Source: Frankiales bacterium (lineage in GTDB: Bacteria; Actinomycetota; Actinomycetes; Mycobacteriales; Jatrophihabitantaceae). From it: DNA of 39,706 nucleotides. Made by a program: the position numbers and the translations under genes. Where the stretch lies: the NCBI GenBank assembly GCA_025966315.1, contig JAOPUZ010000009.1, positions 1 to 39,706 on the forward strand, read 5' to 3'. Position 1 is the first letter of the stretch, and each line of letters opens with the position of its first letter. Shown piece by piece: positions 1,437-36,400 of the stretch. The notes under the pieces were generated by a model. It was not told the origin of the DNA. It ran no database searches and saw nothing but the letters and a program-made list of their open reading frames with translations.

Positions 1437-1481
1437 ATGATCCGCATGGTCAACAGCGACGCGGTGCGCAGGTCACTATGA
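1437..1481 (+). CDS. Possible 14-codon leader ORF overlapping the first operon gene
   Basis: ATG at 1437 opens a short frame encoding MIRMVNSDAVRRSL and ending at TGA 1479-1481. Its stop overlaps the ATG at 1478 as ATGA, the same junction used repeatedly inside the operon. A GGGGAG stretch at 1429-1434 is too close to the first ATG (2 nt) but well placed for the in-frame ATG at 1446 (11 nt), which would give an 11-residue peptide. The frame could be chance. The alternative is that the downstream gene starts at GTG 1427 and this frame is not used. Confidence 0.3.
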   Translation: MIRMVNSDAVRRSL

Positions 1482-2263
1482 CGCGCCCGCGAGCTCGCCG
1501 ACCTAAGGGGCCGAAGCCAACAAGCACGCCGAAGCCTGCCAAACCATCCAAACCCGCAGTACCCGCTGAGTCACCGACGCCCAAGGGCCCGGGGTTGGCG
1601 GCGCAGGCGCTGGCCGGACCCGGTTCCGTCGTCGGCTCGGTGTTGCTGCGGGATGCGCTGGACCAGCTCGACGAGCGGACCCGGGCCACCGTGGTCAAAG
1701 GGCTGGCCGGGGTGCTGCCACAGGTCGTGCAGCCGGGCAAGGTCGGTCGCGACCGCAGCCTGCGCCCGGACGATCTGGCCGCGCTGATCCCGGCCGCCGC
1801 GGTTAGCGCAGCCGGCCTCAATCCGGCGAGTACGCCCTCGCCGCCGCCCGCCGTGCTGTGGTCCGACGGCGGCAACCAGCTGCTGGTGCGGGTCGCCGGC
1901 GTCCAGGCCAGGCTCGGTACCGGCTTCATCGAGCTGAGCATCCCGGTCAGCTGCGATCAAACCGGCGACGCCCAGGTCAGCGTCACCGTGCTGACCGGCA
2001 GCCCGGAGCTGCCCACCGGCGGGGTGAGCACGACCGAAGACCACCCGCGCGGCCCGGCCGTGATCGTGGAGAACTGGCACGATGCGCTGATTGCCTACGC
2101 CTGGCAGACGATTCTGATCGCCACCTCGGCCGTCGCCGGCGCGGTCGGCACCGACACCAACGGCGCGCCGCTGATCACTCAGGGACTGACCGTCACCGCC
2201 GACGGTCTCAGCGTCCGGCCGATGGCTCAGCACCTGTTCGCACAGACGAATCAGCTGCCATGA
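1478..2263 (+). CDS. Uncharacterised protein, first gene of the giant-protein operon
   Basis: A 261-residue protein that I do not recognise as a named family. Residues 1-40 are a Lys/Pro/Arg-rich, probably disordered basic tail (MTRPRARRPKGPKPT and on). The rest is a mixed alpha/beta domain with a helix around LLRDALDQLDERTR, beta-rich segments (NQLLVRVAGVQARLG, FIELSIPVSCDQTG) and a late helix NWHDALIAYAWQTILIA. There is no signal peptide and no sure membrane helix. I chose ATG 1478 because it overlaps the leader-ORF stop and begins directly in the basic tail; GTG 1427 would add 17 unconvincing residues. Its TGA overlaps the ATG of the giant gene (ATGA at 2260-2263), so the two are translationally coupled. 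A structural or assembly role with the giant protein is inference. Confidence 0.72.
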   Translation: MTRPRARRPKGPKPTSTPKPAKPSKPAVPAESPTPKGPGLAAQALAGPGSVVGSVLLRDALDQLDERTRATVVKGLAGVLPQVVQPGKVGRDRSLRPDDLAALIPAAAVSAAGLNPASTPSPPPAVLWSDGGNQLLVRVAGVQARLGTGFIELSIPVSCDQTGDAQVSVTVLTGSPELPTGGVSTTEDHPRGPAVIVENWHDALIAYAWQTILIATSAVAGAVGTDTNGAPLITQGLTVTADGLSVRPMAQHLFAQTNQLP

Positions 2264-5200
2264 CCGGGCTGCCCACGCTGGACCCGGAGATTTCCGATCT
2301 TGGCGTGGCGCTCGGCCTGCTCACGCCCGACACCGGCAGCGGCGTGCAGCTGGACAGCGACTGGTTCGCAGCACCCGCCGATCACCTGAGCGGTGCCCTC
2401 AGCAGCGAAGCTCGGCGCTCGGCCCTGGTTCGGTTCGCCGAGGCGATGCTGGCCAATGGTGGGCACACCGAGCGCAACGGGGTGACGTTGCTGCCGCTGT
2501 TCAACCTGCGCGAGCTGGCCGGCGACAACACGCTGCCCGACCTGGTCATTCAAGCCTCGGTGGACGCGCAACCGGTGGAGTACACCGAAATCGGTCTGGC
2601 GCTCAGCTTCAGCACCGTTGATCCGATCACCCAGACGGACGCGGTGATTCCGCTGTACCGGGCCGCCAAAGCCGGTCATACGGTCGCGCAACCCTTTGCG
2701 CTACTGGCCGGCGGCAAGCTGCAGGTGGCCACCGAAATCACGCTGGACACCAGCACGCCGGCGATCGACGAGTTCGGGTTGGCCGGCGTCGCGGTGGCGA
2801 TCGACACCGCCGTCGTGGGGACGCCGACGCCGAGTTTCACCTTGCTGCTCAAGGGATTGCACCTGCCGGGTGCACCTGCGGCCACGGATATCCAGGTCGG
2901 TGGCCCGGGCGTTCAGATCGAGGATGCGCTGCTCTCGCTGGTGCTCGGATTGGTCCGCCAGGGCGCCGACGCGCTGACCGGTGCCGCGGCGAGTGAAGTC
3001 GAGGCGGTGCTGGACCTGCTCGGGCTCGGCGCCGCGACTTCGGGCATCCCGCCCCTGCCGGTAACCGAGTTGCTTGCCGGTGGCGTCTCGGTGCTACGTA
3101 CCTGGTTCACCGAGCTCATGGGCGCCGACGCGGCGCGAACCGCCTGGCTCACGGCGCTCAGGAGTGTGCTCGGCGGATCCCTCGACCACGGCGTCGTCAG
3201 CATCCCCATTGCCGGCGGTCCGGTCGCGGTGACCGTCGCGATCAAGACCACTACCGGTCCGGGTGGGCATCTTCAGGTGACGCCCCAGCTCGGCCTGTCG
3301 TTACAGGCCGACGTCGCGGGCACCATCCAGCTCGGCGCGCAGGCGAATGCGGAGCTGTTCACCGTGGACGTGGCGACCGGTGCGCTGGTCGCAGTGCCGT
3401 ATGCCGATGTGGTCGTCACCGCCACCGGTTCGGGCAACGGAAACGCGAGCAAGCTGCTGCACAACGCCGTCCTGGACATCGGCTCGCTGCGGCTGGGCCT
3501 GGCCGTGCTGGCCGGCGTCCCGCACGCGCTGATCGAACTGCTGGACGTGGACATCGACGGCACTCACCACGACCTGCTCGACCTGTCCAGCCCGGACGCG
3601 GCGGTCGCGGCGATCGGCCAGCTGGCGGGCGACCTGGTCGGCGAGGCGCTGGATGCGCTCGGGCTGGCCGGCTCGGAATTGAAGGGCCTGCTCGGGCTCG
3701 AGCCGCCGGCCGGGGTGCCCGCGCTGGACGCCAGCCTGCTGCTCAGCGCTCCACTCGGCGCGCTGCGGTCCTGGTGGCACGACCTGGTTACCGATCACGC
3801 GGCCGATGTACCGGCCGTACTCACGCATCTGTTGAACCTGGTGTCCGCGCCGCTGCAGGCCGCCCAGTCGGTCAGCGGTACCGGGATCGCGGCCGACCCG
3901 TGGTCCATTCCGATCGCGAATCGGTTGACCCTGGACGCCTGGCGTGACGGTGACCGGCTGGTCCTGGCCCCGACCGTGTCGTTGCGGGTGGCCGACCTGG
4001 CCGGCGGCTGTACGACCGTGCTGACCACGATCCGGGTCGAGCTGGCCAGCATTGATCTGGTGACCGGTCACGCCGACTTCCTGTCCGGCGTCGAGTTCAC
4101 CACCAAGCTGCGCAACACCGGTGAAACCGCGGCCACCTTGTCCCTCGGCACGGTGGCGTTGACGGCCGACTTCGTCGGGGTGCAGGCGAGCTGGCGGCCC
4201 ACCGCCGGCTTCGACATCGCTTTCCAGGCACCGAACGCCGCAGTCGTCATCGACGACCAGCGCGTGCCACTGACGTTGCCCTCCGTCGACGCCAACGGTC
4301 AGCTCAGCGTTTCCGCGGACGCGTGGAGCTCGGTTGAGGCGCTGGTCGCGGTGCTGGCGACCGGCTCGACCGGCTGGCTGGCCGATCTGGTCGCGCTCAC
4401 CGGCTGGACCGTCGAGGGCGGCCAGACCCTGCTCTCGCTGGCCGAACTCGCGGCAACTCCGGAGGCGGCCCTGCGCGACTGGGTCCGTGGCCTACTCACC
4501 CGGCCCGACGCGCTCGGTTCCCTCACCGCCACTGTCGGCCATCTGGTCGGTGGCAGTACCGCCGGGCTGGCCGGCAGCTTCGGGGGCAGTGGCAGCCGCG
4601 ACGATCCCTGGTTGGCCGGATTGGGCGGTGCGGCCGACTCGCCCGCCATCGCGGTATGGCTGGATCCGAGCGGCCCGGTGGTGGCCGCGTCCCGAGCCGG
4701 CTCGGCGCTGACGACCTGGCGTCCGGGCACCCCGGGGCTGCCACCGGACGGGCTGGCCGCGGCCTTACGGGACGAGGGCGACACCGACCTGGAGGCCGGC
4801 CTGCTCGCCGCCGGCCGGGTCGATCTCGGCGCCGGGCTGCACGCGCTGGCCGGGCGCTGGGTCGATACGGACGGCCTGGTTGCCACGCCGAGCCCGGCGA
4901 TCGACGGCCTGATCACCGTCGTGCGCCCGGACCTGGCCTTCGCGGAGCTGGCCAACATCAGCGATGTCGAGCTGTCGTCGGCCATTCCCGCCGGGCTGCC
5001 CGCCGGTGCGGTGGTCGTCAAGGTCGCGGTCAGTTCGGTGGCCGGCACCCCGTTCACCGCCACGGCCGGCGCGGTTGCCGCGGCCGGGCGGCTGCTGGAC
5101 CTGACCGCGCCCGGGCTGGCCGCCGACTCGTTCGCGGTGAGTTCGCCGGCGCCGGGGGAGTGGATCGTTGCGCTGGCCTCCCGCGGTGACACCTCACTGG

Positions 5201-8200
5201 GGGCGTCGGATCCGAGCGGTGTTCTCGGCCAGGCCGCCCGCTTGCAGAGCGTCCTCACCGCCCTGGCGCCGGCCGGTTCGATCGTGCTGGTGGCGCTGGG
5301 CGGGGCCGGCCACGCGGCGCGGTTGGCGGCCGACGCGGTCAGCGGCGTCAGCACCCTGGTCACGCTCGGGACGCCGTGGAGCGCGGTCACTTTCGACAGT
5401 TACCGGACGGGTGCCCCGGCCGAGGCGTTGCGGCTGTTGCGGGCACTGCTGCCGCCCCCGGACGCCGCCGAACCGGATGACCCCGACCTCGCGCTGGCCC
5501 GGTCGGTGGTGACCGGATCCTTCGACGCGGCCAGGGGAAAGCCGTACATCAGCGACCTCGAGGCGCCGCGTCCCAGCACCCCGATCCGAGTCGGGCTGCA
5601 GGCCGTCGGTGTGTTCGGCACGCTGACCGAGGCGAGCGTCGCGCGGGCCATGACTGCGGTCTTCGCGGCTGGCCTGGCCGGTCGCGCGCAGGCCCGGGTG
5701 GCGGCCGCGCGGGCACCGGCCACCGGCGCGCACATCGCGGTGCGGCTGCCTTTCGACCTGGGCATCCCGCCCGGCGGGCACGGCATCAGCGTGTCCGGTG
5801 CGGCCATGCTCAGCCTCGGCGAGATCGGCTTCGAGCCGGCGACGTTCCGCGCCGCGCCGGCCGTGCACCTGGAGCTGGAGGTGGCCGACACTGACGGCTG
5901 GCTGGTCGGCGGCCCGGGCACCGCCCCGGTGGGCAGCGCACTGGCGCTGGAACTGCGACGGCTCCGGGCTCGCTTCCAGTTCGGCCTGGCCAGCGGCGAT
6001 GCGGCCCGGCCCGGGCCATCCTCGGATGCGCAGATCCTGCTCGGTGAAGGCTCGGCCCTCGGCGCTGACTGGGCCAGCCTGCTCGTCCGGCCGCCGACGT
6101 TGCCCAGTGGCGAGCTGGAACTGCAACCGTTACTGCCCGAGGCCCAGGCATTGCTCGCCGCGCTCACGACCAAGCTGTCGAGCAGTGTCGGGGGCGGCCC
6201 GGGGGGCTCCTTGCTGGCCTTGCTGCAGGCAGCCGGTGTGGCCGCGTCGTCGGGCGGGGCGGCGGCGACTGCGCTGGTGCCGGACGCTTTGGCCCAGTTG
6301 CTCCACGATCCGGCCGGTCGGCTCCGGACGCTGATTGCCGCGCCCACGAGCCGGGCGGCCCTGCTGGCGGCGCTGCAACCGCTGCTGCCGGCGCTGAGCA
6401 CGACGGGCGACACCGTGCAGCTCAGCACGGGCCCGGTTCGGTTGGCGGCCGACGTCACCAGCGGCGCCGTCACCTTCGCCCTCGGCGTTCCGGACGGTCT
6501 GGTGCCGCTGGCCGCGAGCGCCGAGCTGCGTCCTGGGGTGGCTGCGAGCTGGCAGCTGACGGTGGGCGATCCGGCCACGAATGCCTTTGCGCTACGGGTG
6601 GAATCGGTGTCGGCCGCAGGCGCGCCGGGCACCAGTCCGGTGCGCGCGACGTTGCTCCGGCCGAGCGGGGCAACAGCGATCGCGCTGTGGCCGAGCTTCG
6701 AGGCCGATGCGTTGGGGCGGCTGGCGGTGGCGGCGGTGCCGGCCGAGGCGTTGCGGCTCGTGCTCGAAGGCCTGCGCGGCATCGACTACCAACTCGGCAC
6801 CGCGCTGGACGACCTCAGCTCGGCGGTGGGCATGCTCGGGCCGCCGGACGGTGACGGCAACCGCGCCGTCCGGGCCTCGGTGGGGTTGTTCGAAGATCCT
6901 GGCCGCTGGTTCGGGCAGGCCGGGGTGCTGGCCGCGCTGGCCGGTGGCCCCCTCGACGTGAACAAGGTCATCGACCTGCTCGAAGGCCTGAAACCCTTTG
7001 TCGGCCTGGCCGGAACCCCGCGGGGGACGTGGCCGATCGTCACCGGCCTGCAGATCGCGGTCACCGCGTCCGCGACCGGACCGGCCATCTCGCTGACCGT
7101 CGATGCGACCTCCTGGCTGGCCGGCTTGGCCGCGCACGCGCCGGTCGCGGCCGGCCTCACGCTCGGTTTGACCTTGCCGCCCAGCGGGCCGCCGCGGCCG
7201 TCCGTCGAGGTGTTCCTGGGTGCTCCGGACGGCCCGAACGGGACGTCGACGCCGCAACATCGCAGGGCGGCGCACCTACTGGTCGACGCCAGCTCGGTTC
7301 GGTTGCTGCTCCGCCCGGCCGCCGGCGCCGACATCGAGATCTTCCCCAATCCAGCCGGTTTCGGATCGCTGCTCGCCGCCGGGGCAACCGAGTTGTTGCC
7401 GCTGGCCCTGAACGAACTGGCCAAACTGTCCGGCGACACCACTCGCGAGCTCATTGCCGGGTTGGTGACCGGGGCCGGCCGCGGGCTCGGGCTGGCCTCC
7501 ACGGCGACCCCGGCGGTGTTCGACAAGGCTGCCCTCAACGCCCTGGCGGCCAACCCGACGGCCTACCTGCAAGCCCACACCGCCAGCCTGCTCACCGAGG
7601 CCGCGGGCTCGCTGAACCTGTTGTTGCAGGAACTGGTTCCGGCCGCGCGGGCGACCGTGGACGGCGCCGGAGTGCTCACCGCGAGCTTCCGGACGGTGCT
7701 GGTCACGGTGCATCCGGCGCCGTTCGCGGTCAGCGTCACGGCGGCGGTCACGGGCTTGCCGGTGCTGGGCGCGGTGTCGCTGGCGATGTCGGCCGACAGC
7801 ACCGGGCTCACCGGTTGGTCGGCCGGCATCGGCCCGGCCGAGATCGCGCTGGCCGGTATCACGGTGCGGCCGTTCGTCCGGGCCGGGTCGCAGCGAGCCG
7901 TCGGCTGGCAGGCCGAACTGGGGTTGGGGCTGGACGACAAGGCGGCGACGGCCACCGGCCATCAGGAGCTGGTGGCGCGCTGGCGGGAAGCCGATCATGC
8001 CCTGGGCGTGCTGGTCAGCACCGTCACCGGTCCCGGTACCACCGCTGAGGACGCCAGCCCCGAGGGGGTCGCGGTCGCGGCCATCGACGCCGTGCTGGAT
8101 CTGGTCGGTGGCTGGGTGCTCGGCGTCGATGAGGTAACCGCCTTACTGCAGAAGGGTTTCGGCAGCAAGACGGTCGGCTTCGTGCTGCAGGACGCGATCC

Positions 8201-11200
8201 TCGACCAGGCCGCGCCGGCCAATGCGCCACGACTGGTGTCCGGGGTGCTGACCGGCTGGCCCGGCAAGCTGTTCACGATCGCCCTCAATCTGGCCACCGC
8301 GGCACCGAAGATCACCATCGATGCGTTCACGTTCAGCCTGTCCCGGGACGGCTCGAACCGGTTGGGCGTGGCGCTGTCGACGGTCAATGCGGCCGGTATC
8401 GATCTGACCGGCGGCAGCGAACTGGCCCTGCACCTGGAGGTGGACGCCAGCTGGATCGAACCGCCGAGCGGCCCGGCGCCCAGCCCTGGCATCGTGCTCA
8501 ACCTGTTGACCGTGGCCGGGACCGCGGCGAATCCGACGTTCGCGGTCACCCCGGGCGTGGCCGTCAACGGCGTAGGGCTGCGACTGGGTAAGACCACCGG
8601 CCCGCTGATCGACGAGGGACTCAAGCTCGACTCGGTCGCCGTGCACCTGTTCGGCAGTGTCCAGCTCGGGGGCGACTCGCACCCGATCTTTGCCGGCGGC
8701 GTCCAGGTGGAACTCGGCGGACTGGCCGTTCCGCTGGGCGGCGGTGGTGGTGACAATGCGGTCGCGCAGGGAATCATGAGCGACGCCGGCGGCAGCGGAG
8801 CACCGCCCCGGCCGAAGTTCAGCCCGGCCGTCGCCGTCCAGGACCACGGCAGCGGGACCTCGGTCACGTTGCGCGCCGGTAGCGGCGACGGCCCGTGGTT
8901 CCTGCCCATCCAGCGGGCGTTCGGGCCGGTGTACCTGGAGCAGATCGGTCTGGGCGTGGCCTATCAGCCGGGCGTCACACCGAAGAACCTGCAGATGATC
9001 AGCCTGTACCTCGATGGCGGCGTATCGCTGATGGGGCTCGCGGCCAGCGTGGACAAGCTGCGATTCGGCTATCACGTCGGGCAGCCGTTCTTCGCCGGTT
9101 CGTCGTGGGAGATCGACGTCGACGGGTTCGCGATCTCCAGCGACATCGGCGGTCTGACCCTGGCCGGCGGGCTGCGCAAGTTCGACCTGGCCGCACCGCT
9201 GACCGGGGTGGAATACCTCGGCATGCTCAAGGTCGGCTACGCCAGTTACGGCGTCGACCTGTTCGGTGGCTACGCCCATCCCACTACGGCCTCGGGGTCG
9301 TCGTTTGCGTCCTTCTTCGCTTTCGGCGTGCTGCACGCGCCGATCGGCGGGGTCCCCGCATTCTTCATCACCGGTATCGGGGTCGGTTTCGGCATCAATC
9401 GTGAGCTGCACACGCCGACGATCGATCAAGTCAACACGCATCCGTTCATGCAGGCGTTGCGGGCCATCGGACCGACCCCGGCGCCGATGAAACAACTCCA
9501 AGACATGCGGGCCATCGTGCCGCCCGCGCAAGGGGAATACTGGGTCGCCGCCGGTATCAGCTTCACCAGCTTCGTGTTGATCACCGGCGAGCTCCTGGTG
9601 ACGGTCCAGTTCGGCGACGGCCTGGAGATCGCCATTCTCGGGCTGGCGCGGGCGGAGCTGCCGACGCCGTTGCTGACCCTGGTGTCGATCGAGCTGGCCC
9701 TGCTGGCGCGGTTCTCCTCCAAAGAGGGCACCCTGCTCGTCCAGGCGCAGCTGACCGAGAATTCGTGGCTGCTGGACAAGTCGGTTCGGCTCACCGGCGG
9801 TTTCGCCTTCGCCACCTGGTGGAAAGGCCCGAATGCCGGGCAGTTCGTCATCACGGTCGGCGGCTATCACCCGCGCTTCCACCACGACGGTTACCCCGAC
9901 GTGCCGCGGGTCGGTTTGCGCTGGGCGCCCATCGACAACATTTCGGTCGTCGGCGGGGTGTATTTCGCGCTGTGTTCCGAGGCCTTGATGGCTGGTGCCG
10001 CCATCGAGGTCGCTGCGCACTTCGGTCCGGCGCACGCCCGACTGGCCTTCGGCGGCGACGCGATCGTGTTCTTCGACCCGTTCTGGTTCTCGGTGTCCGC
10101 GTACGCCGAGGTCGACGTCGGCATCAGGATCTGGCTGCTGTTCGGATCGGTCGACATCGAGCTTTCCTTCGGTGTGGCCGTGGAAATCTCCGGCCCGCCC
10201 ATCTTCGTCACCGGTCACTTCAGCGTCTGCGGCTTTGCGGTTCCGTTCGAATTCGGTGACCAGGCCAACCCGGCGGACCGGGCGTTGACCAGCGACCAGT
10301 TCGTGCAGAAGTATCTGCGGGCCGACAGCAACGCCCAGGTCGTACAGGCGACGGTGCTCAAGGGCGCCATCGTTGCCGGCAAGGCGCCCGCGGCCAGCGG
10401 TGGTTCTTCCGGTGGCGGCACCGACAAGCCACCGGACGGAAGCGCCGAGCATCCGTTCCGGGTCGCACCGGAGTTCGTACTCAGCTACGTCACCACCGCG
10501 CCGGCGGAAACCCTCACCATCACCGGGCAGGCGGGCAGCACGAAGTCGGTCACGGTGAGCGCTCCTGGGCTGGGCGTGGCGCCGATGTACTCCGCCAAAC
10601 TGGACAGCACCCTGACGATGGCCTTCGCCCGGCCGGACAACGCAACGTTCGATCTGACCGACGTGATCCTCGCGCCCCGGCCGGCGGCCGCGTTCCCCAA
10701 GGGCGTCTGGGGTCCGGCCCAGAATCCGAAGGCGCCGACGGTGCCGGCCGGCGACACGATCGATGCCGTGGACGGCCTGACCATCGACACCCAGCGGCCC
10801 GACAAGCTCGGGGCGCCGCCGATCGACTACCACCAGATCGAGCTCCCGTTGCACGGGCGCAAGCCGCTGCCGTTCGTGACCAACCGGGCCAACACCGACG
10901 CGCGGGTCAGCGCCGCGCTCGCGCTGCGCAACGCCGCGAAGGTGCTGACCGACGGAAATCCCGACAGTGACGGACGATTCGTGCGCGCCGCGTTGATGCT
11001 GTCCGCCGGCGGATCCGGACGGTCGACGGTGGCGGCGCTGCGTGGTGACCGTAACGCCGCGCCGTCGTTCGGCTCGCTCGCCGACGATCTGATCGACAGC
11101 CCGGCGGCCGTATCGCCGGCGGTGACGGCGGTGGTGGTCGACCGGAATCCGCCGGCGGCCCGCCGCTTCGCCCCACTGGTCAAGGCCGTGCTGGGCGTGC

Positions 11201-15703: not shown

Positions 15704-18700
15704 CCCAGTTCAGTACGGACGAGATCAGCCGGGCCGTTCAGAGCCCGCGCTGGGCCGCGCTCACCCAACTGGGTGGGGTGGCCGCCGACCTGCACAATTA
15801 CGACCGCTTCCTGTTGCGCGATCCGCGGCTGCTGGTGCCGATCGACGTCCAGGCCCTGGTGGTGCGGGCGGGCGTGAACGACACCGAGACCATGGTCGGT
15901 TTGCCCTTCCGGGACAAGGAAGAAATGCCGAGGCTGGACGTGCGGGACGCCGGCCAGCCGCGGCCGCCCGGCGTGCATCTGTTGTGGTCGGTGCCCGCCG
16001 CGCTCGGCCGCGGCACACTGGTCGACGATCCACAGGCGCCGGGCGATCCGACCCGGCGCCGGCTGGACCTGCCGATCCTGCCCGATCGGTGGGTGGTACT
16101 GCGGCTGGCTGTGCCGCTGGGCGGTCGCGATCCGGTCGTGGCCGGCTGGGTGATCGAGGCTGATGCCGCGACCGTGACGCCGCTCGCCGACTACCCGGCC
16201 AACACGGCCAACACCAAGACCGTCGGCCCCGCGGTGCCGCTGTCGCAGTTGAACATGCACATCGGCGGGACGTCCTGGGCTCAGTGTTACGACGCGGCCC
16301 AGGGCCGCTTCGCGCTCCATGACCCGCTCGATGATCTGGGTGGCCAGCGGGTCGAGGGCGATGCCCTCAGCTACCTGGTCGCGGGCTGGTGGTCGGGCAG
16401 CGCGGACGATCCGCTGGACGGGATCGGCAGCGAGATCGGGTACGTGCAGAAGCTGAAAGAACTGGGCTGGAACGACCCCGATCATCCCAGCCCGGACTCG
16501 GCGCAGCGGGATCAGCAAAGTGGCCGGGTCAAGGTGGCAACCACGTTCGGCCTCAGCACACCGACCCGGTACAGCCAGGCGTTGCAACTGGCGGCCGGCC
16601 ACGCGCCAGCGTCGTCCATCAACTCGAGTTCGGTGCTGTCCAGTGTCGGCTCGCCGGCGGCAACCGTGTTGACCCCGGCGCTGAGCGGATTCCTGCACGA
16701 ATCGCTGGTGGCCGCCCTGCTACCGCCGGCGCCGACCCGCTCGACGCTGCTGCACGGCCGGCTGCACGGGGTACCGCTGGATGGTGCGCCGGCTCCGGAC
16801 GGGCGGCCGGCAGCGGAGGCGGTACGGGTTGTCCTCGGCTCGTCGCAGGCCGACCTGGCCGCGACCTTGTCGGTGGCGGGCACCGGTATCGGGGCGGCCG
16901 ACGAGGACGCGCGCCGCGCCGCTGAGCGGCTGCTCGCCGGTTTCGCGTCCGGTCTCATCAACCGGCTCGGCGAGTCCGACGCCTGGGCCGATATCCAGCA
17001 GTACGAGCACGCGCACTGCTTCGGTTCGCTGCCGGGCGGGGTCGAGGGCATGGACCGGTTCGTGGACAAGCCCGGCTCGGCCAGCGATCCGGGGGCCGGA
17101 TTCCGGGCCGGTGGCGTCAACAGCCCGCGGCCGCCGAAAACCGTGGCCGCCGAGTCGACCGTGTTGTGGAGCGCGGTCCAGCGGCCGTTCGCGGTTCGTA
17201 CCGAGCAGCGGCTTTCCCTCAGTGACAGCGCGGTATTCGCCCGGCCGAGGGCCTTCGACGGTGTCGGTAATGCGGTTGCGCCGCCGCCACCGGCCCAGGT
17301 GCGTGAGGTACCCCGACCGGCTCCGCGCTATCACTTCCCGGCGGCACCCGTGCTCGCAGTGGGTGGCGCGGGCCGGGCGTTGAGCGCAGTGGAGCGCGAG
17401 GAGGCGGACGGGGCGTTGATGTGCCGGCTGTCGGACCAGGTCAGCCAGGGCCACTACGGTGTGCTGAGCGCGACCGAGCTGTTGAGCACCATCGGTAGCG
17501 CCGCGGTGCCGGCTGAGGTGCTGGACCTGGCCCGGGAGGCGCTGTCCGAAGACCCGTTCCTGCTCGGCTGGCGGGCCCGCCGCGCGGCTGGCGATCACGG
17601 CTTCGACCTCGACCAGGTGACCAACCGCTTCCGGGCCGAATCGGCCGTGTCCTACGCCTATTACGCGGCCGACGACACCCGGGTCGCGGCCTACACCGGC
17701 GCGCCGGTGGCGTCGGCTGCCAGTCGCCAGCGTGCCACCGAAGGCCTGCTGCGGATGTCGATTTCGCAGGGCACCTGGGCGCATCCCGAAGGCGTCACGA
17801 TGTGGGGACAGCCGTGGCGGCCGATGTTCTGTGATTGGCAGCTCACGCTCGAGTCAGGCCCGCTCAACGGCTGGGACCTCGACGGCGTCGACTTCGAGGC
17901 GAGCGAGACGGTCAGCATGCCGGATGCGCTCACCTTCACCGGCCGCAGTGCGTTGCTGACCGGCGTGGCCGGCACCTTGGCCAACGGCATCGACCGGTGG
18001 CTGACCGAGGAACGGCAGCGTGACCTCGGCGGCCACGGGCTAGCCGACCCGCCAACCGAGAACGCCCTGTCCGCGCTGCGGCAAACGCTGTCCGAGCTCG
18101 ACCTGATGTCGGTCGCGCTGGACGGTGTACGCGAGCAGCTACTGGGCCTGCGTTACGACCGCGGCCTGGTGCACACCGACGCCAACGCGCTGCCCGACGG
18201 CACCGCGAGAGCGCTGGTCGAAGCCCTGCCGCGACTGCTGCGGGCCGGCCGGGTCAAGGTTGAACTGGCCCGCCTGGTCGATGCGTTCGGCCGGTTGTTG
18301 CCGCTGCCGTTGGACGGCCTGCTGGTGCCGGCCCGAGTCGCTGACGCCGATCCACACCTGATGGAACTCAGCCCGCGGCTGACCGCGCCGGCTCGGTGGC
18401 GCTTCGATCTGGTGGACGCGACCTCGACCAGCGTGGACGCCGCGCTCGGCAACATTGATCAGACCGACGTCAGCAAGCAGGTCAATCCGGTGGCGGGCTT
18501 TCTGCTGCCCGACCACATGGACGAATCGCTCGAGGTGTTCGCCACCGATGGGCGCCCCCTCGGCGAACTGTTGCACGACCCGTTCAGCGACGCGGTGACG
18601 TGGGAGATCGCGCCCGGACGGACCGATGTGGCTCCCGCGGCCGGCCCGACCGAGGATCCGGACGTGACCCATCATCGTGTTGGTTGGATCGCGGCCGGCT

Positions 18701-19596
18701 TGGTTGCCGCCGATGCCACCGCCCGGCAAGGCACGCCGAACCGGTCAGAGACGGAGTCCGCGCTGTCGGCGTTGCTGCGCGCGATCGACACGACGCTGTG
18801 GACGGTGGACCCGTTCGGCTCGTTGGGGCAGGAACACATTGCCGGGCTGGTTGGTCGACCGATTGCGGTGGTGGCGGCCCGACTCTCGTTGGACGTCCAC
18901 TCCGACGTCGCGGATCACGCCTATTCGGACGAGGGTTTACGTGCCGGTCGCGAGGCGGCATACCGAAACCTGGCCGCGCTCGAACTGCCGGTTCGGCTCG
19001 GTGAGATCACCCGCTCGGACGACGGGCTGCTGGGTTACTTCGTCGAGGACGACTATGCGCATTTTCACGTAGTCGACAAGGTGATCGTCGAAGAGGCACT
19101 GCCCAGCGGTCGGGGCAAGGGCGTATTGGATCCAGACGGCCCGCCGCCGGGTGCTGCCGTGCCGATCGACAATCCCTACGTCGATCCCTCGGGGGTGCTG
19201 CGGATCCATCCCGGTCAGACCGTTCGGCTGACGCTGTTGATGCATCCCGGTGGCAACGTCTACCTCACCTCGGGCATCCTGCCGCGAACCAGCCGGGCGC
19301 TGTCCCGGGACTGGATCGATCCGGGCTTGCGGGTGCTTGCCCCGTCATTGCGTTGTGGTCCGCTGTTGATCGACGCGGACAAAGTACGCCTGCCCAAGGT
19401 GGCGTCGTTCCCGGCGGAGCAGCTGTTCACCCATCGCGATACGCCCACGTCATGGAAGGACGACCCGATTCTGGCGGCGACCCAGTCGGCCCTGCTCCCG
19501 GACGAGCCGCCGCAGGTGCAGGAAGGTTGGGTCCGGATTGCGCCCAACCCGCCGACTGCACCAGGCCGTCCCGGCTCGGCCGGCGGTGCACCATGA
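15700..19596 (+). CDS. Uncharacterised 1298-residue protein of the giant-protein operon
   Basis: ATG 15700 overlaps the upstream TGA (ATGA). The N-terminal region (residues ~1-230) is a beta-rich domain with the landmark GVHLLWSVPAALGRG at about residue 91 and LPILPDRWVVLRL at about 125-137. The middle (residues ~250-900) is largely helical, with Ala/Leu/Gly-rich stretches such as LSALRQTLSELDLMSVAL. The C-terminal ~200 residues return to beta structure (VRLTLLMHPGGNVYLTSG). I do not recognise catalytic residues, a signal peptide or membrane helices. Size and the mixture of beta ends with a helical centre suggest a large structural or shell component. The stop codon overlaps the start of the propeller gene, so stoichiometry may be set by translational coupling. 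Confidence 0.8.
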   Translation: MTQFSTDEISRAVQSPRWAALTQLGGVAADLHNYDRFLLRDPRLLVPIDVQALVVRAGVNDTETMVGLPFRDKEEMPRLDVRDAGQPRPPGVHLLWSVPAALGRGTLVDDPQAPGDPTRRRLDLPILPDRWVVLRLAVPLGGRDPVVAGWVIEADAATVTPLADYPANTANTKTVGPAVPLSQLNMHIGGTSWAQCYDAAQGRFALHDPLDDLGGQRVEGDALSYLVAGWWSGSADDPLDGIGSEIGYVQKLKELGWNDPDHPSPDSAQRDQQSGRVKVATTFGLSTPTRYSQALQLAAGHAPASSINSSSVLSSVGSPAATVLTPALSGFLHESLVAALLPPAPTRSTLLHGRLHGVPLDGAPAPDGRPAAEAVRVVLGSSQADLAATLSVAGTGIGAADEDARRAAERLLAGFASGLINRLGESDAWADIQQYEHAHCFGSLPGGVEGMDRFVDKPGSASDPGAGFRAGGVNSPRPPKTVAAESTVLWSAVQRPFAVRTEQRLSLSDSAVFARPRAFDGVGNAVAPPPPAQVREVPRPAPRYHFPAAPVLAVGGAGRALSAVEREEADGALMCRLSDQVSQGHYGVLSATELLSTIGSAAVPAEVLDLAREALSEDPFLLGWRARRAAGDHGFDLDQVTNRFRAESAVSYAYYAADDTRVAAYTGAPVASAASRQRATEGLLRMSISQGTWAHPEGVTMWGQPWRPMFCDWQLTLESGPLNGWDLDGVDFEASETVSMPDALTFTGRSALLTGVAGTLANGIDRWLTEERQRDLGGHGLADPPTENALSALRQTLSELDLMSVALDGVREQLLGLRYDRGLVHTDANALPDGTARALVEALPRLLRAGRVKVELARLVDAFGRLLPLPLDGLLVPARVADADPHLMELSPRLTAPARWRFDLVDATSTSVDAALGNIDQTDVSKQVNPVAGFLLPDHMDESLEVFATDGRPLGELLHDPFSDAVTWEIAPGRTDVAPAAGPTEDPDVTHHRVGWIAAGLVAADATARQGTPNRSETESALSALLRAIDTTLWTVDPFGSLGQEHIAGLVGRPIAVVAARLSLDVHSDVADHAYSDEGLRAGREAAYRNLAALELPVRLGEITRSDDGLLGYFVEDDYAHFHVVDKVIVEEALPSGRGKGVLDPDGPPPGAAVPIDNPYVDPSGVLRIHPGQTVRLTLLMHPGGNVYLTSGILPRTSRALSRDWIDPGLRVLAPSLRCGPLLIDADKVRLPKVASFPAEQLFTHRDTPTSWKDDPILAATQSALLPDEPPQVQEGWVRIAPNPPTAPGRPGSAGGAP

Positions 19597-22500
19597 CCAG
19601 GTACGAATGGCCGCGGCCGCCGAAGAACGGTGACAATCCGGCCGCGCGGGCCGACCACAATGCCCGGCTCCGGCCACCCGCCGACGTGACATCGCTCGGG
19701 GTCGTCCCGCAGGCGTTGAAGAAGAACACCCGGCGCAAACGGGCCGTGGCGCACAATGCCCCGGTCGGCGCCGAGAATCTGTGGTTTCCGATCGGCCCAT
19801 CGTCGATGACGAACGGGCAAGCCGCTCGCACCCCGAATGTCGCCGGCCGGATCCGGGACGTCCAGATCGAGCCCGCGAACGGGTTGCGGGCCTATGCGGC
19901 CAGCGCCTCCGGCGGCGTCTGGTTCTCGGCCGACGCGGGCCTGACCTGGAACCCGCTGGACGACTTCCAGCAGACCCCGGATCGTTCGGCGATCGGACTG
20001 GTGGCCAACGCGCTCGCGTGCGGCGCGCTGTACGTGATCTGGGGCGCAACGGCCGCGACCGACGAGGTGTGGGTCGGTACGGGCGAGCTGGGTGGTGGCG
20101 CGTCGGGGATGCCGGGCGGACACGTGTCCGGGATCGGCTTGCTGCATCGCACCGGCGCCGGATGGGCGGTGGTCAAAGGGGATCCGCCGACGGCTGATGC
20201 CGACACGCTGCGCGGCGAGTCGGTCTTTCGGATCGTGGCCGACCCCGGCAACCTGAGTCAACTGGTCGCCGCGACGAGCAAGGGTGTCTACGTCCTGCCC
20301 GGTGGCGGTTCCTGGGTGAAGGCGACCGGCTGGCCGAATTCTGGTGCGATCGGCGACCACGCGCCGGTCGACGTGGTGCTCACCCGCAACGGCACCAGAC
20401 TGCGCATCTGGGTGGTGGAGTACGGCCACCTCTGGGTCGCTGAGGTGCCGGCCGCCAGCCCCGTTCCGGCCACCTTGACGTTCGCCGAGATCGCGTTGCC
20501 CAAGGTCGCGTTCGGTCGCATGACGTTGGCGGCCGCGCCGGACAGCCGAACCGTGTACGTGCTCGGCGTGCGGCTCAAGACTCCGGTGGAAGTGCAGGCC
20601 GCAGGAAACACCACGCCGCTGGCCCACTTGTGGTCAGTTGACGCCACGGCTGCCCTCGGCGCCCTGGCCGCGACCGAACTGCCGGGCGTGCCGACGGCGT
20701 TGTTCATGTCCGGTGCCGGCGACCAATCTTTTTACGACATGTGCATTGCCGCCCACCCGACCGTCGCCGGGCGGGTGCTGGTCGGCGGGGCGGCCGTGCT
20801 CACGAGCAACTACAACGCGGCGCTCTACCAGTGCGACACCGCGACCGTGCCGATGGCGCCGGTGTACATCGGCGACGGCGTTCATTCGGATGTGCACATC
20901 ATCCGGATCCGGCCGCTGCCGGCGGGCAATGTGCCCAACCGCGACGTCTGGATCGGCTGTGATGGTGGGCTGTTCGTCTCGAGTACCGACGGGACGCTGA
21001 ATTCCTTCGTCCCGCGCAACGACGGTTTGGCCGTCTTGGAACCGGGGTACGTGGCCAACCATCCGTCCAACCCGGGGGTCGTTGCGGCCGGCTTCCAGGA
21101 CAACGGCACCGGGTTGCGGGTCGGCGACACCGTCTGGGACGAACGCGCCCAAGGTGACGGGGGCGGACTGATCTGGGATCCCGATCTCGGTGCCCCGCCA
21201 GTCGGGACGCCGGCCGTCAGCCGGTACCTGCGCCAGTACAACCACGCGAGCTGGTCGAGCAGCGATGGCACCGCGCTGCAGCCCGTGTTGCGCCGCAACG
21301 CCGGCGCCCCAGCCGGCGTTGTCGGTTCCGAAGCCGCCGAGAACCTGGTGGCGCAGTTCTATTCCGGCGCGGACGCGGCCTCGCTCGGGCCCAGTGACTC
21401 CCACATTGCCCTGGGCACCAACCGGGTCTGGTACACGCGCGACTTCGGCCAGCATTGGGTGACGCTGCCCAGCGGGACGGATCCCCGAGCCACCAACAAT
21501 CCCAACGATCGCCAAGACGTGGTCACGCCGCAGCTCAACGCGGACGGCTCGACCTGCAGCGACGACCCACCCTCGTTGCCGGCCGGCATTGTGGCGGTGA
21601 AATTCTCGGTGCCGGCGCCGACCGCGACCGACTCCCGGTTGCGCCTGCAGGCCTTGTATCCCGGCGGACTGGTCTGGCTGACCGGCAGCCGGCCGTTGGC
21701 GAGTACCGGACCGTTCGCCTGGACCGTCCCGGCGAAGGATCATCCGCTGCCGACTCAGGCGTTTCGGGCTCCCAAGAGCGGTGCGGAAACGGACTCCTAC
21801 AACGCGGGCAGCGATCTGCACTTTCTGCCCGCACCGGGCTTGGTCAGTGATTTCGCCGTTCACGACGCGGCCCGCGGAGAGCTCGGCTCGTGCTACGTAA
21901 CCACGATCGGGCAACGGGACTTCGGACCGAACACACCAGGCGCGCGGCTGGACACGCTGTGGTTCTTCGACGGCACCGACCGCTGGATTCCGTGTGGCTT
22001 GCGGACCAACAGCGCGAACGGGCATTGGACCGGTACGCAAATTACGGCGCCGGCCCTGGGCGTGGTCGTCGACGCCGTTGGTGCGGACCGCAACACCGTC
22101 TACGTGGCGACCAGCGTCGGTGTCGTCAAGGGTGTGTTGACCATCATCAACGGCCCGTCGTATTCGTGGCAGTGGCAGCTGTTCGCGAACGGACTGCCGG
22201 AGGCCGCTGTGCAGGACCTGTCGATTCGGACGTACGGTGGCGCGCGGTTGCTGCGGGCGGCGTTGCAGGCTCGGGGGGTGTGGGAAACCGACCTGGCCAC
22301 ACCGATCTCGACTGCGTTGACCTACCTGCGGGCCTATCCGTCTGACAGCCGGCGTCTGCTGCCGACGGCCCTGACCGGTCCGACCGTGTCGGGAGAAACC
22401 CCCTTGCCGCGCTGGGATCTGAGCCCCGATGTGGTCGTGGACATCACGGGTACCACGCCGGCGGATCCGAACGAGTCCCAGCTGGCCGCGTTGCAGCCGA

Positions 22501-22994
22501 AGCCGGCTTCGGGAGCGCCCACCGCGTTTCGGACCGGCAATCGATCGCCCATGGTCCACGTGTTGCTGCATCACCGTTGGAGTGAGCCAGCGCCGGCCAA
22601 TGGGGTGAAGGTAGCGCTGCTGCGGCATCCGCTGCCGGCCACGGGAACGGTGCCCATCGCAGCGTTGTGGGCGGCATTGACTGCCGCGCAGGGACTGGCG
22701 ACGCCACCGGTTGGCTTGCCCGACGGATGGACGGCCGCCGGCAGCGTGTTGTGGGATCGGCCCGCAGGCCCAGTGGAAACCAGGATGCCGCGAGTGGTGT
22801 CCTTCGGTGTCAACTTCCCAGCTGCTTCCGATCCGCCCGGAACCCGGGTCGTACTGCTGGCCGTCGTGCTGAGTGCGACCAACCCGATCGGCGACGACGA
22901 CCTCAAGCTCACGGCTACCACCAAGTCCAGCACGGTGGATCAACTGGTGCTCACCTCGTCGCACGCGGCGGCGGTCACCATCGAGCTGCAATAA
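19593..22994 (+). CDS. Asp-box (BNR-type) beta-propeller protein, 1133 residues
   Basis: The start ATG 19593 overlaps the previous TGA (ATGA); the frame is open 80 codons further upstream but only over the preceding gene. An exact Asp-box SADAGLTW lies at residues 112-119, inside the propeller-style context SASGGVWFSADAGLTW, and a second, TRDFGQHW, at 615-622. GFQDNGTG followed by GDGGG is another hallmark of sortilin/VPS10- and BNR-type propellers. Residues ~50-830 are therefore probably one or two propellers; the remaining ~300 residues form a beta-rich C-terminal domain of unknown type. The basic N-terminus (RRKRAVAHN) is not a signal peptide. I see no sialidase Arg triad, so a binding/recognition role is more likely than hydrolysis. 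It is the last gene of the block. Confidence 0.84.
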   Translation: MTRYEWPRPPKNGDNPAARADHNARLRPPADVTSLGVVPQALKKNTRRKRAVAHNAPVGAENLWFPIGPSSMTNGQAARTPNVAGRIRDVQIEPANGLRAYAASASGGVWFSADAGLTWNPLDDFQQTPDRSAIGLVANALACGALYVIWGATAATDEVWVGTGELGGGASGMPGGHVSGIGLLHRTGAGWAVVKGDPPTADADTLRGESVFRIVADPGNLSQLVAATSKGVYVLPGGGSWVKATGWPNSGAIGDHAPVDVVLTRNGTRLRIWVVEYGHLWVAEVPAASPVPATLTFAEIALPKVAFGRMTLAAAPDSRTVYVLGVRLKTPVEVQAAGNTTPLAHLWSVDATAALGALAATELPGVPTALFMSGAGDQSFYDMCIAAHPTVAGRVLVGGAAVLTSNYNAALYQCDTATVPMAPVYIGDGVHSDVHIIRIRPLPAGNVPNRDVWIGCDGGLFVSSTDGTLNSFVPRNDGLAVLEPGYVANHPSNPGVVAAGFQDNGTGLRVGDTVWDERAQGDGGGLIWDPDLGAPPVGTPAVSRYLRQYNHASWSSSDGTALQPVLRRNAGAPAGVVGSEAAENLVAQFYSGADAASLGPSDSHIALGTNRVWYTRDFGQHWVTLPSGTDPRATNNPNDRQDVVTPQLNADGSTCSDDPPSLPAGIVAVKFSVPAPTATDSRLRLQALYPGGLVWLTGSRPLASTGPFAWTVPAKDHPLPTQAFRAPKSGAETDSYNAGSDLHFLPAPGLVSDFAVHDAARGELGSCYVTTIGQRDFGPNTPGARLDTLWFFDGTDRWIPCGLRTNSANGHWTGTQITAPALGVVVDAVGADRNTVYVATSVGVVKGVLTIINGPSYSWQWQLFANGLPEAAVQDLSIRTYGGARLLRAALQARGVWETDLATPISTALTYLRAYPSDSRRLLPTALTGPTVSGETPLPRWDLSPDVVVDITGTTPADPNESQLAALQPKPASGAPTAFRTGNRSPMVHVLLHHRWSEPAPANGVKVALLRHPLPATGTVPIAALWAALTAAQGLATPPVGLPDGWTAAGSVLWDRPAGPVETRMPRVVSFGVNFPAASDPPGTRVVLLAVVLSATNPIGDDDLKLTATTKSSTVDQLVLTSSHAAAVTIELQ

Positions 22995-23016
22995 TCCGTC
23001 GGTTGGTACGCGCGCG

Positions 23017-23043
23017 GTCGGGAGCGCTAGGACTCTTCCCGAC
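23017..23043. terminator. Weak convergent hairpin at the end of both operons
   Basis: GTCGGGA (23017-23023) pairs with TCCCGAC (23037-23043) around a 13-nt loop, followed by TTT on the plus strand. It lies between the stop of the propeller gene and the end of the minus-strand gene, and its loop contains the TAG stop of the minus-strand gene. The stem is only 7 bp and there is no proper T tract, so the terminator call is tentative. Confidence 0.3.
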
Positions 23044-23356
23044 TTTGATCGGGCGGCAATTCTGCCGTGGAATCAAGGGAATCAACGGAGCCCGCTGAAT
23101 CCGCTGAATCAATTGAGCCCACTGAATCCACTGAATCAACCAGGAACACTCCCGATCCGGCCTCGCCCGACACCGTGATCAGCTCGTTCGCGTAACCGGA
23201 AAGTTCCTGGTCGATGTCGAAGGCACCAGCACCTCGCCGGCGCAACACCCAGTCCCGGTCGCTCGCCTGCAAGACCACCGCCGGGCGTGCGCTCTTCGAC
23301 CCGGCCGCCACCGTCCGTACCGAGACCCGACCGGTCAGGCTGGTCGGCGCTGTCAT
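23027..23356 (-). CDS. Small beta-rich protein with acidic DS-repeat tail, coupled to the C25-like protease
   Basis: 109 residues. Residues 8-73 look like one small beta barrel (LTGRVSVRTV, GSKSARPAVVLQ, DWVLRRRGAGAF, ELITVSGEA). Residues 74-96 are a tripeptide repeat of the type [DG]S[VIAL], giving an acidic, Ser-rich, probably disordered tail, and the protein ends in an acidic stretch. Its ATG overlaps the TGA of the protease gene (ATGA on the minus strand, 23353-23356), so it is made together with the protease. I do not recognise a named family. A regulator, inhibitor or substrate adaptor of the protease is a reasonable guess. An acidic tail could also contact the basic tails of the neighbouring operon; nothing in the sequence proves that. 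Confidence 0.72.
   Translation of the reverse strand: MTAPTSLTGRVSVRTVAAGSKSARPAVVLQASDRDWVLRRRGAGAFDIDQELSGYANELITVSGEAGSGVFLVDSVDSVGSIDSADSAGSVDSLDSTAELPPDQSREES
23070..23141. repeat. Eight 9-nt tandem repeats encoding the DS tail
   Basis: Eight 9-nt units (plus strand GAATCNNNN or GAGCCCNCT) form the tail of the minus-strand small protein. A 27-nt higher-order unit is duplicated at 23088-23114 and 23115-23141 with few differences. The period is a multiple of three, so copy-number changes lengthen or shorten the tail without a frameshift. Confidence 0.88.
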
Positions 23357-24996
23357 CGTCGCACCACCCTGCGAATCTCTGTTGCGCTGCCCGGTTCCTC
23401 GCGGACCACCAGCAGCGATTTCGGGTGCCCTCGCGGACCTGGCACGAACGCCACGTGGGCGACCGCCGACACCGCCGACACCGCCGACACCGCCGGTACC
23501 GGCGCGGCCAAGCCGGCCGGCGTTAGCGGCGCCGCACTCAAGCGGCGTAGCGCGCCGCGCCCAACCGCCGCCGCGCCACGGGAAGGGGGAGTGGCGGCAG
23601 CGTTGGCCGACTCGGCCCCCTCGGCAGCAGCGACCACCGGCGCGCTGTCGAAGGTACGGATGACCGTGTCGACGGGAACCTCGCGACCGAGCAGTGCGGC
23701 CAGCCGGGTACGGGTCAAACCGGCTCGCCCTCTCGGTGCGCCCGAACTAGCGACGGCCGCCGACTGGAGCGCCATTCCGACCGCCGAGGCCACCGCGCGG
23801 CGTGATCGCACGCCGGCGCTCACCATGTTCTTCGGGGCCGCGGCCGAGACCGTGAACGGCTGGATCGACGGGTCGCCGAGAAGATCGAACTGAGCCAGGG
23901 TCTTGATGTCCGTCGGATCCAGGAACGACTGGCCTTGAACGAACCGCTGCCGCGCACTCAACGCCGCTCGCCCCAGTGACGCCCCGGCCAACACCTCATC
24001 CAGGAACAGTCTCGCCAGCACATCGGCGTAGTCGTTCGCGGCCGCCGGCCCGTAGGCCACCGTGGACGATCCGAAGAACCCGGCTGCACCGTTGCTCAGG
24101 TAGGTCATGGCGATACCGGCCTGCCCGCCCGCCGCCGACGCGGGCCAATGCGCGGCGCCATAACAGCATTCTGCCGAAACCACCGTCCCGACGCTGATCT
24201 TCTTCGTCAGCAGCGCGGCGTCCATCGCGGTCGGCAATGCCGCCTGGGTGGCGCTGGCCTGGCCGTAGAACTTCGGGTCGAATTCGCCACCGTGACAGTT
24301 GATGAAATGCAGCGGCGCACTGAGGTCCGGCTTGCTCCAGTTGGGACCGTCGGCCGGTGAGGTGTGCACAGTGCTGGTCGCCGCTGCGAGTTTGCCCACC
24401 GACAACTTCGTCGAGGCCTGCCATACCTTGGCGGTTACCGCCAGCACCGCGACGCTGGCCGGCCGCGTAACGCTAGCGGCCGCGGCCGCATTTGCGAGCA
24501 GGCCGCGCAGTATCACCGGCGATGATGCCCCCATCGCGTCCGGCAATCGGCCGACGACCCGGGTCGGCCCGCGAAAGGTGTTGGCGGCGGTGGTGTACGG
24601 CGCTTCGCAGGCATAAGGCAGGTCACTGGCGATGAACTGGTCCGGGTCGTCGTCAGCGTTACCGGTCCAGAGCGGATTGTCCAGCGGCACCTGGGCGAGC
24701 AGTTCCGGGCCGCCGAGCAACACCAGATAGGCCGGGCTCCAGTTCGCGTAGACCTGGTCGACGAATGCCTTGATCGCCTGGGCGTCGGCGGCAGTGTCCA
24801 CCTTGACCGCCGATACCTTTCGCGCGTCGGCGGCAGCATCCACGCAGAGCAGGCGGGTCGTCATTCCACGCGTCCTGTCCGCTTTCACGAGCGCGGTAAC
24901 GGCGGCTCGGATCGCGGTCCAACCCGAGGCGCCGTACTTTGCCCGTGCCGCCCCGCGATGGGTGAGGATGACCTTCACGATCGGAGTAGCTGGCAT
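23353..24996 (-). CDS. Gingipain-like peptidase C25 family (caspase-fold) cysteine protease, cytosolic
   Basis: 547 residues. Motifs in order: YLVLLGGPELLAQVP (90-104), a Rossmann-like strand; DLPYA then VVGRLPD (125-153); INCHGGE with His235; VSAECCYGA with Cys277, where gingipains have SVACVNG; and FDLLGDPS near 370-377, the usual C25 end motif. The His/Cys dyad is present, so activity is plausible. Residues ~390-547 are Ala/Val/Ser-rich and include VSAVSAVSAV repeats; they could be a linker or a binding tail. Unlike secreted gingipains there is no signal peptide, prodomain or sorting domain. The upstream sequence has GAAAGGG about 10 nt before the ATG. It is coupled to the 109-residue gene downstream and convergent with the giant operon. 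It belongs to clan CD (caspase-like), often found in bacterial conflict and cell-death systems. Confidence 0.85.
   Translation of the reverse strand: MPATPIVKVILTHRGAARAKYGASGWTAIRAAVTALVKADRTRGMTTRLLCVDAAADARKVSAVKVDTAADAQAIKAFVDQVYANWSPAYLVLLGGPELLAQVPLDNPLWTGNADDDPDQFIASDLPYACEAPYTTAANTFRGPTRVVGRLPDAMGASSPVILRGLLANAAAAASVTRPASVAVLAVTAKVWQASTKLSVGKLAAATSTVHTSPADGPNWSKPDLSAPLHFINCHGGEFDPKFYGQASATQAALPTAMDAALLTKKISVGTVVSAECCYGAAHWPASAAGGQAGIAMTYLSNGAAGFFGSSTVAYGPAAANDYADVLARLFLDEVLAGASLGRAALSARQRFVQGQSFLDPTDIKTLAQFDLLGDPSIQPFTVSAAAPKNMVSAGVRSRRAVASAVGMALQSAAVASSGAPRGRAGLTRTRLAALLGREVPVDTVIRTFDSAPVVAAAEGAESANAAATPPSRGAAAVGRGALRRLSAAPLTPAGLAAPVPAVSAVSAVSAVAHVAFVPGPRGHPKSLLVVREEPGSATEIRRVVRR
23462..23497. 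repeat. Four 9-nt repeats encoding VSA in the protease tail
   Basis: Three identical units ACCGCCGAC and a fourth variant ACCGCCGGT on the plus strand encode the Val-Ser-Ala repeat near the C-terminus of the C25-like protease. Like the repeats in the adjacent small gene the period is 9 nt and frame-preserving. Confidence 0.8.
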
Positions 24997-36397: not shown

Positions 36398-36400
36398 TCT

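Follow-up and report, generated by a model that had tools for sequence, protein, structure and literature searches.

What kind of system is encoded by a block of six abutting genes, one of which codes for a protein of more than three thousand residues, and does the protease gene pair facing this block belong to it? These questions are raised by the actinobacterial contig JAOPUZ010000009.1, which was analysed over its entire length of 39,706 nucleotides (the window) and which is part of a draft genome of 4.56 Mb in 77 contigs. Six genes on the plus strand (g1 to g6, positions 1478-22994) overlap their successive neighbours by 4, 4, 1, 4, and 4 nt, and two mutually overlapping genes (4 nt) on the minus strand (g8 and g7, 23027-24996) converge with them across a gap of 32 nt. 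A sequence-only reading had described this arrangement as six very large genes facing a protease and its small partner. Lengths and layout were confirmed by listing and translating the open reading frames (ORFs) (Table 1), although g1 and g4 are of ordinary size with 261 and 355 residues, and position 1437, given as the start of the block, lies outside the frame of g1, which has in-frame starts at 1427 (GTG) and 1478 (ATG). Two of the eight block proteins reached a Pfam cut-off, g2 with DUF6603 and g8 with Peptidase_C25, and the other six (g1, g3, g4, g5, g6, and g7) matched no Pfam family over cut-off. Similarly, NCBIfam searches with six block proteins gave nothing over cut-off or convincing, and no PHROGs match was obtained for the five proteins scanned (g2 and g6 not among them). 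Here we show that g2 to g5, usually together with g1 and often with g6, form one co-inherited and horizontally transferred operon, of which the facing protease pair is an optional neighbour.

Conservation and horizontal transfer of the operon

A scan of genome contigs from named genomes with g5 yielded 52 loci. Wherever enough DNA was available, a g4 relative or fusion (44/44 loci) and a g3 relative (43/43, fusions counted) were encoded upstream of g5, and the giant DUF6603 gene g2 was present in 40 of 41 cases. The sole miss is locus L087, where the contig begins 1.7 kb before g3 and an unlabelled ORF of 562 residues occupies this space; in L084 the giant was called as two ORFs. Downstream of g5, g6 was detected in 30 of 43 loci; L092 is counted as lacking it, although a propeller-like protein missed by the g6 query is encoded behind its g5. 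Relatives of g1 were found in 17 of the 20 operon genomes searched, the exceptions being Chitinophaga, Micromonospora, and the fragmentary RYN_165. In 15 regions fetched at g1 matches, a selection that gives no measure of g1 frequency, g1 adjoined a labelled g2 in 13; in the other two, its neighbour was a large ORF without a label. Median gaps between the core genes amounted to -1 to 2 nt (g1-g2, n = 13; g2-g3, n = 41; g3-g4, n = 38; g4-g5, n = 40; g5-g6, n = 33), with single gaps from -64 to 721 nt in the fetched loci, where genes were called with a home-made codon model trained on the core genes instead of a standard caller.

In relatives from Chitinophaga, Micromonospora, and Paenibacillus, g3 and g4 form a single fused protein. 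Plasmid searches with g5, g3, and g4 gave matches in Streptomyces, Embleya, and Paenibacillus. On the Streptomyces, Embleya, and P. polymyxa plasmid stretches, DUF6603, a g4-matching protein, and g5 are encoded in a row; the intervening protein matches both g3 and g4 in P. polymyxa, and in Streptomyces and Embleya it is about fusion-sized and matches g4 only. On a P. sonchi plasmid, g5 is present together with the g3-g4 fusion, and the stretch gave no DUF6603 match.

The rows of the g5 tree belong to Actinomycetota, Pseudomonadota, Acidobacteriota, Gemmatimonadota, and Myxococcota. Together with Chitinophaga (Bacteroidota) and Paenibacillus (Bacillota, plasmids), g2 to g5 are thus found in seven phyla, and named carrier strains include Marinobacter flavimaris, Kribbella rubisoli, and Chitinophaga filiformis. 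Pairwise divergences of g2, g3, g4, and g5 are correlated with r of 0.96-0.99 (36 loci, 630 pairs) and those of g2 to g5 with g6 with r of 0.90-0.93 (300 pairs), calculated without an unrelated-gene control. Phyla are intermingled in the g5 tree, where Arthrobacter and Mycolicibacterium group with Pseudomonadota, and monophyly of the seven Actinomycetota rows was rejected (log-likelihood 815 lower, p-AU 4.75e-5) in what is a quick tree, for which the tool warns of long branches. The operon is rare. Among 396 genomes of the window's phylum, DUF6603 was detected in 12 and the g4 profile in four, all within those 12, so that DUF6603 alone is not diagnostic of the operon; the g4 profile search and the C25 search of this sample scored five and three candidates per genome, respectively, which makes absences weak. 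Among 61 near genomes, g5 occurs in five, the window's own included.

A multi-gene system of large proteins had been proposed from the window, and the recurrence of its core in unrelated genomes bears this out. In the neighbourhoods of g4 and g5, recurrent association was found with DUF6603 giants but not with C25 proteases. The system is real and stronger than first stated, with different boundaries: g2 to g5 are the core, g1 is usual, g6 is common, the enzyme at the 3' end is variable, and the C25 protease is optional. That some 17-21 kb of coding sequence are kept together and move whole between phyla implies a selected function. No description of the operon was found in the literature searched, a full-text search for DUF6603 returned no paper, and DUF6603 is the one Pfam family for which a core protein of the window exceeds the cut-off. 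Defined boundaries and named carrier strains make the question of function directly testable.

Two protease families beside the operon

The g8 protein matches Peptidase_C25 with 58 bits (cut-off 23), and the motifs NCHG and AECC(Y/F)G are invariant in all seven aligned sequences, window included. From membership in clan CD (PMC4357240), His235 and Cys277 are the candidate catalytic residues. When g8 was compared to the PDB by sequence, no match was obtained at E 0.1. Of the 39 loci whose DNA extends far enough, two have a C25 gene nearby, one in Kribbella and the other in an isolate from the same family as the window, and C25 proteases occur anywhere in the genome in two of 20 operon genomes, both with operons close to that of the window. 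In the 396-genome sample, the window's own match was the only strong one, and three others were weak (E 3.6e-8 to 6.1e-4). The pair had initially been counted as part of the system; homologues of the operon usually lack a nearby C25 gene, and these counts rule the C25 protease out as a core part, so that we keep it as a local accessory.

Ten plasmids from Rhizobium, Bradyrhizobium, Sinorhizobium, and Novosphingobium encode relatives of g8 with 38-43% identity, and all ten are absent from the plasmid records that g5 matched (a comparison across plasmids, chromosomes not being covered). A g7 homologue is located directly beside the C25 gene in 3/3 actinobacterial (window included) and 4/4 rhizobial cases examined, one of the rhizobial homologues being unannotated. 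As the pair occurs on these four rhizobial plasmids without g5, g7-g8 is a separate two-gene module that exists apart from the operon. The SpeB-Spi and staphopain-staphostatin pairs, described in PMC2873492, likewise join a small gene to that of a cysteine protease, and by analogy g7 may be an inhibitor of g8. Around the rhizobial pairs, ferritin-like and radical SAM annotations recur about 0.5-7 kb from the C25 gene in L130, L132, and L133, with a tryptophan 7-halogenase in two of these and serine or S8 proteases in two; L131 is without the ferritin-like/radical SAM set near its pair.

At the 3' end of the operon, another protease is more frequent. In nine of 39 loci, the final gene of the operon (g6 or, in Pseudoxanthomonas, g5) is followed at a distance of 17-125 nt by a gene for a metalloprotease of family M12A with about 360 residues. 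The one member scanned matches Pfam Astacin (E 4.9e-6), zinc motif and Met-turn are present in 9/9, and none of the nine N-termini is signal-like by hydropathy. In a whole-genome search, a single M12A copy was found in each of eight of 23 genomes and none in 15. Coordinates place seven of the eight copies next to the operon; in Arthrobacter, the remaining copy lies behind the C-terminal part of a g6 where another contig ends, and the operon's g6 is cut at the end of its own contig. No M12A relative was found in the window's genome. Two unrelated protease families thus appear to have been recruited to the same place, one of which would have followed the block into another phylum. The protease link proposed for the window does not hold for C25 in general but survives in part, in that M12A occupies the same slot.

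Other accessories vary from locus to locus. A downstream protein of about 405 residues in eight of 39 loci is propeller-like by eye, and one member scanned has no Pfam match. In Chitinophaga (L098 and L099; 2948-4453 and about 13624-15500), a phage tail collar protein with signal-like N-terminus and another protein are encoded upstream of a short DUF6603 gene, and a Kelch protein downstream of g5. A metallo-beta-lactamase-fold protein, supported by Pfam for the L096 member, directly precedes DUF6603 in L096 (874-2712, Micromonospora) and L034 (458-2386). Two paralogous proteins of 347-435 residues, one with a PLAT domain, follow g5 in L022, L023, and L024 (Streptomyces, Embleya). On the Paenibacillus polymyxa plasmid (L025, 1-2624), a gene annotated as phage baseplate assembly protein V precedes DUF6603 by about 9 kb, and annotations in the interval are toxin- and immunity-like.

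The window had suggested a sensing, conflict, or cell-death system with the caspase-fold protease as effector. Intact candidate catalytic His and Cys motifs in the C25 protease, a patchy and horizontally moving block, and two unrelated proteases in the same slot are in line with this idea. However, C25 occurs in so few loci and genomes, no nucleotide-binding switch domain exceeded the Pfam cut-off among the window's block proteins, and PADLOC at E 0.01 gave no family for the eight block proteins (g2 scanned over residues 1750-2900 only). Positive evidence for such a role was not obtained, and we consider it very improbable. A location in a defence island was also considered and rejected: the 70 flanking proteins scanned gave scattered PADLOC matches (34 families, each in one or two members among the 25 listed) and belong mostly to metabolic Pfam families, no background set having been scanned. 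These 70 head a randomly ordered list of 138, taken from the 233 flanking proteins of 150-900 residues that remained after exclusion of 11 loci, the core clusters, and the recurrent accessory clusters.

A predicted cytosolic assembly around the giant g2

In g2, DUF6603 (PF20248) covers residues 2217-2702 with 393.2 bits (cut-off 27), and the match takes in positions 1-473 of the 502 in the profile. For residues 1750-2900, a model built on 38 sequences has a pLDDT of 77, best within DUF6603, and consists of near-continuous antiparallel strands (45 strands of at least six residues in 1,151). Hydrophobicity alternation over these strands was 0.69, compared to 0.46 ± 0.05 in 500 shuffles, none of which was as high, and in residues 2441-2666 of the predicted model one face is strongly hydrophobic in most strands. 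Computed over whole proteins, beta-moment statistics did not discriminate (g2, 0.102 vs 0.070 shuffled; g4, 0.220 vs 0.142). A segment of residues about 950-1150 (window 5107-5709), taken by eye in an alignment for a degenerate alpha/beta hydrolase, was dropped for lack of Pfam support; in this lipase-like segment the nucleophile position is lost in five of seven aligned rows, and HSLAG or HSTAG is present in L092 and L036. The lysine/alanine/proline repeat tail at the C-terminus of g2 (window 12340-12537) resembles a histone H1 tail by eye.

A simple hydropathy threshold served as the sole criterion for signal peptides. None of the N-termini of g1 to g8 in the window passes it, as had been noted before, and among relatives signal-like N-termini were counted in 0/15 g1, 0/43 g3, 1/40 g4, 4/44 g5, and 0/34 g6. 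An amphipathic sheet without visible signal, present also in carriers such as Paenibacillus and Streptomyces, which presumably have no outer membrane, argues for g2 being a cytosolic scaffold or a binder of hydrophobic ligands, as far as the model can tell.

For the partners, no Pfam match at E 0.01 was obtained with 41 g4, 40 g3, and 25 g6 members, and the Pfam scan of g1 and g5 covered the window proteins. Comparisons of g3, g4, and g5 with solved proteins by sequence gave nothing convincing (best E 0.13, for g5). One PDB match was obtained for g6, the BNR-repeat glycosyl hydrolase 3b7f, with E 3.8e-8 overall and a best stretch of only 30 positions, so g6 is probably a beta-propeller, a weak assignment. 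In Kribbella (L048), a second g6-like gene lies past the C25 gene on the minus strand (19417-21876). Directly upstream of g1, a protein of 56-75 residues is encoded in L117, L120, L122, and L125; these proteins form one cluster, and both sequences inspected contain a hydrophobic stretch.

We give an even chance to the reading that the operon specifies a cytosolic assembly built on a giant of amphipathic beta-strands, in which the enzyme at the 3' end is interchangeable and the C25 pair optional. The products of g2 to g5, with g1 and g6, would most likely assemble in the cytosol as a single large complex, in which g2 might serve as scaffold via its long amphipathic beta-strand sheets. As g3 and g4 are a single polypeptide in other lineages, they would act as one unit; g5 would be an obligate partner and the probable propeller g6 a recognition or docking subunit. 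The 3' end is occupied by different enzymes and might act as a slot that recruits either a C25 protease held in check by g7 or a zinc metalloprotease, which would make the C25 pair an optional processing enzyme and not a core part.

Several observations weigh against such an assembly. Neither protease was found in 28 of 39 loci, g6 was undetected in 13 of 43, and eight of the 12 DUF6603 genomes in the 396-genome sample have no detectable g4. The gene order differs in genome G047, where g5 leads and is followed on the same contig by genes for a LamG protein and a metallo-beta-lactamase-like protein, then by g2 and the fusion. The model of the fused g3-g4 protein from Chitinophaga (pLDDT 68) matches no solved fold (best E 0.21), and hydrophobic alternation is normal for any beta-sheet protein. 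Four of 23 g2 N-termini, as well as the four of g5, pass the hydrophobicity threshold, and there is still room for export by some other route. Finally, co-inheritance, for which the divergence correlations were computed without a control, may reflect a pathway and not a complex, the complex itself being predicted. Block inheritance would look no different for a storage or surface structure, or for a biosynthetic pathway with genes co-inherited in the absence of a physical complex; however, the g3-g4 fusion and the lack of a recognised enzyme domain in the core make this highly improbable.

Foldseek searches with the g2 model bear on a more specific function. The S-layer complex SDBC/SlpA (3e-6), ApoB-100 (3.2e-6), LptD, and ushers were retrieved at E 3e-6 to 3e-4, which, together with the hydrophobic strand faces in residues 2441-2666, would fit a lipid-handling machine in which an amphipathic beta-sheet belt or groove of g2 wraps or conducts lipids or other hydrophobic compounds inside the cell, ApoB- or bridge-like, with g3 to g6 as loaders or tethers. 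Carriers presumed to lack an outer membrane make an outer-membrane barrel unlikely as the general function of g2. However, TM-scores did not exceed 0.35 among the 50 matches listed (0.08 for ApoB), and such low values limit the likeness to the kind of sheet, the predicted strand pattern alone being alike; beta sandwiches alternate too. We regard the lipid-handling function as unlikely.

The scarcity of signal-like N-termini, together with proteases at the 3' end, might also indicate a particle released by lysis, following the logic of tailocins or Tc toxins, with signal-less giants, propeller and lectin-like binding subunits, and a protease payload. Individual loci do encode binding domains (LamG, Kelch, or PLAT downstream of g5; a phage tail collar upstream of g2), the baseplate assembly protein V annotation is found on one Paenibacillus plasmid, and a tail-fibre model is among four weak viral fold matches. 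These four, with E up to 0.001, had TM-scores below 0.16, one g4 scan of viral contigs confirmed no relative, many loci have no recognised accessory, and no sheath, tube, or baseplate genes were noticed within the block, which was not searched for them systematically; we consider this particle quite unlikely. A viral origin of the genes was rejected on the grounds of the same g4 scan and weak fold matches, and of a search of phage records with g8, which gave no sign of it.

Returning to the cytosolic assembly, its widest version would be a class of mobile intracellular machines in at least seven phyla, in which an ApoB-like giant and partner families without a Pfam model make up a lipid- or polymer-binding particle of megadalton scale, equipped with swappable proteases and recognition propellers. 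This version appears doubtful to us.

Coordinates of the features and comparison with known systems

The features of the block are collected in Table 1. Beyond them, the next gene past the protease (window 25868-26716) encodes a patatin-like lipase by eye (GTSAG), and a response-regulator/thioredoxin-reductase fusion followed by a cyclic-nucleotide-binding histidine kinase was recognised by eye at 34712-37973.

Table 1. Genes, domain, and candidate catalytic residues of the block in the window
Feature	Position	Strand	Description
g1	1478..2263	+	261 aa; first gene of block; no Pfam family
g2	2260..12540	+	3426 aa; repeats of about 230 aa near N-terminus, DUF6603 in C-terminal third, lysine/alanine-rich tail
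DUF6603 domain of g2 (PF20248)	8908..10365	+	modelled as long antiparallel amphipathic beta-strand meander
g3	12537..14636	+	699 aa; no Pfam family over cut-off
g4	14636..15703	+	355 aa; no Pfam family over cut-off
g5	15700..19596	+	1298 aa; no Pfam family; query for scan of named genomes
g6	19593..22994	+	1133 aa; probable beta-propeller (BNR-like); common, not universal
g7	23027..23356	-	109-aa partner of C25 protease; putative inhibitor or chaperone
g8	23353..24996	-	547-aa C25-family (gingipain-like) cysteine protease; local accessory
g8 His235 (NCHG)	24292..24294	-	candidate catalytic residue; invariant in 7 aligned relatives, window included
g8 Cys277 (AECC)	24166..24168	-	candidate catalytic residue, presumably Cys277 rather than Cys278; invariant in 7 aligned, window included

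Gingipains, which according to PMC4560394 are type IX substrates secreted to the cell surface, share with g8 the family match over cut-off and the invariant His and Cys motifs. In contrast to them, g8 shows no signal-like N-terminus by hydropathy and is paired with a small protein; its Pfam and NCBIfam scan lists no type IX domain family, and a PorU-related NCBIfam match reached 20 bits (cut-off 450). The SpeB-Spi and staphopain-staphostatin pairs resemble g7-g8 in that a small gene is coupled to a cysteine protease gene, but g8 belongs to another protease family and g7 is likened to the inhibitors by gene arrangement alone. The M12A proteases, which are astacin-like in the Pfam match of the member scanned and in their zinc and Met-turn motifs, occupy the 3' slot in another branch of the operon, and a search of the window's genome gave no relative. 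With the DUF6603 family the giant shares one such domain, at a score far above cut-off; that domain, however, is one of unknown function without a described system, and most genomes that encode it have no detectable g4. Bridge-like lipid-transfer proteins and ApoB-100 can be set beside g2 by description, in giant size and in the predicted long antiparallel amphipathic strands. The belt of ApoB is described in PMC12419007; its likeness to the g2 model is one of strand type, with the very low TM-score given above and no sequence relation shown.

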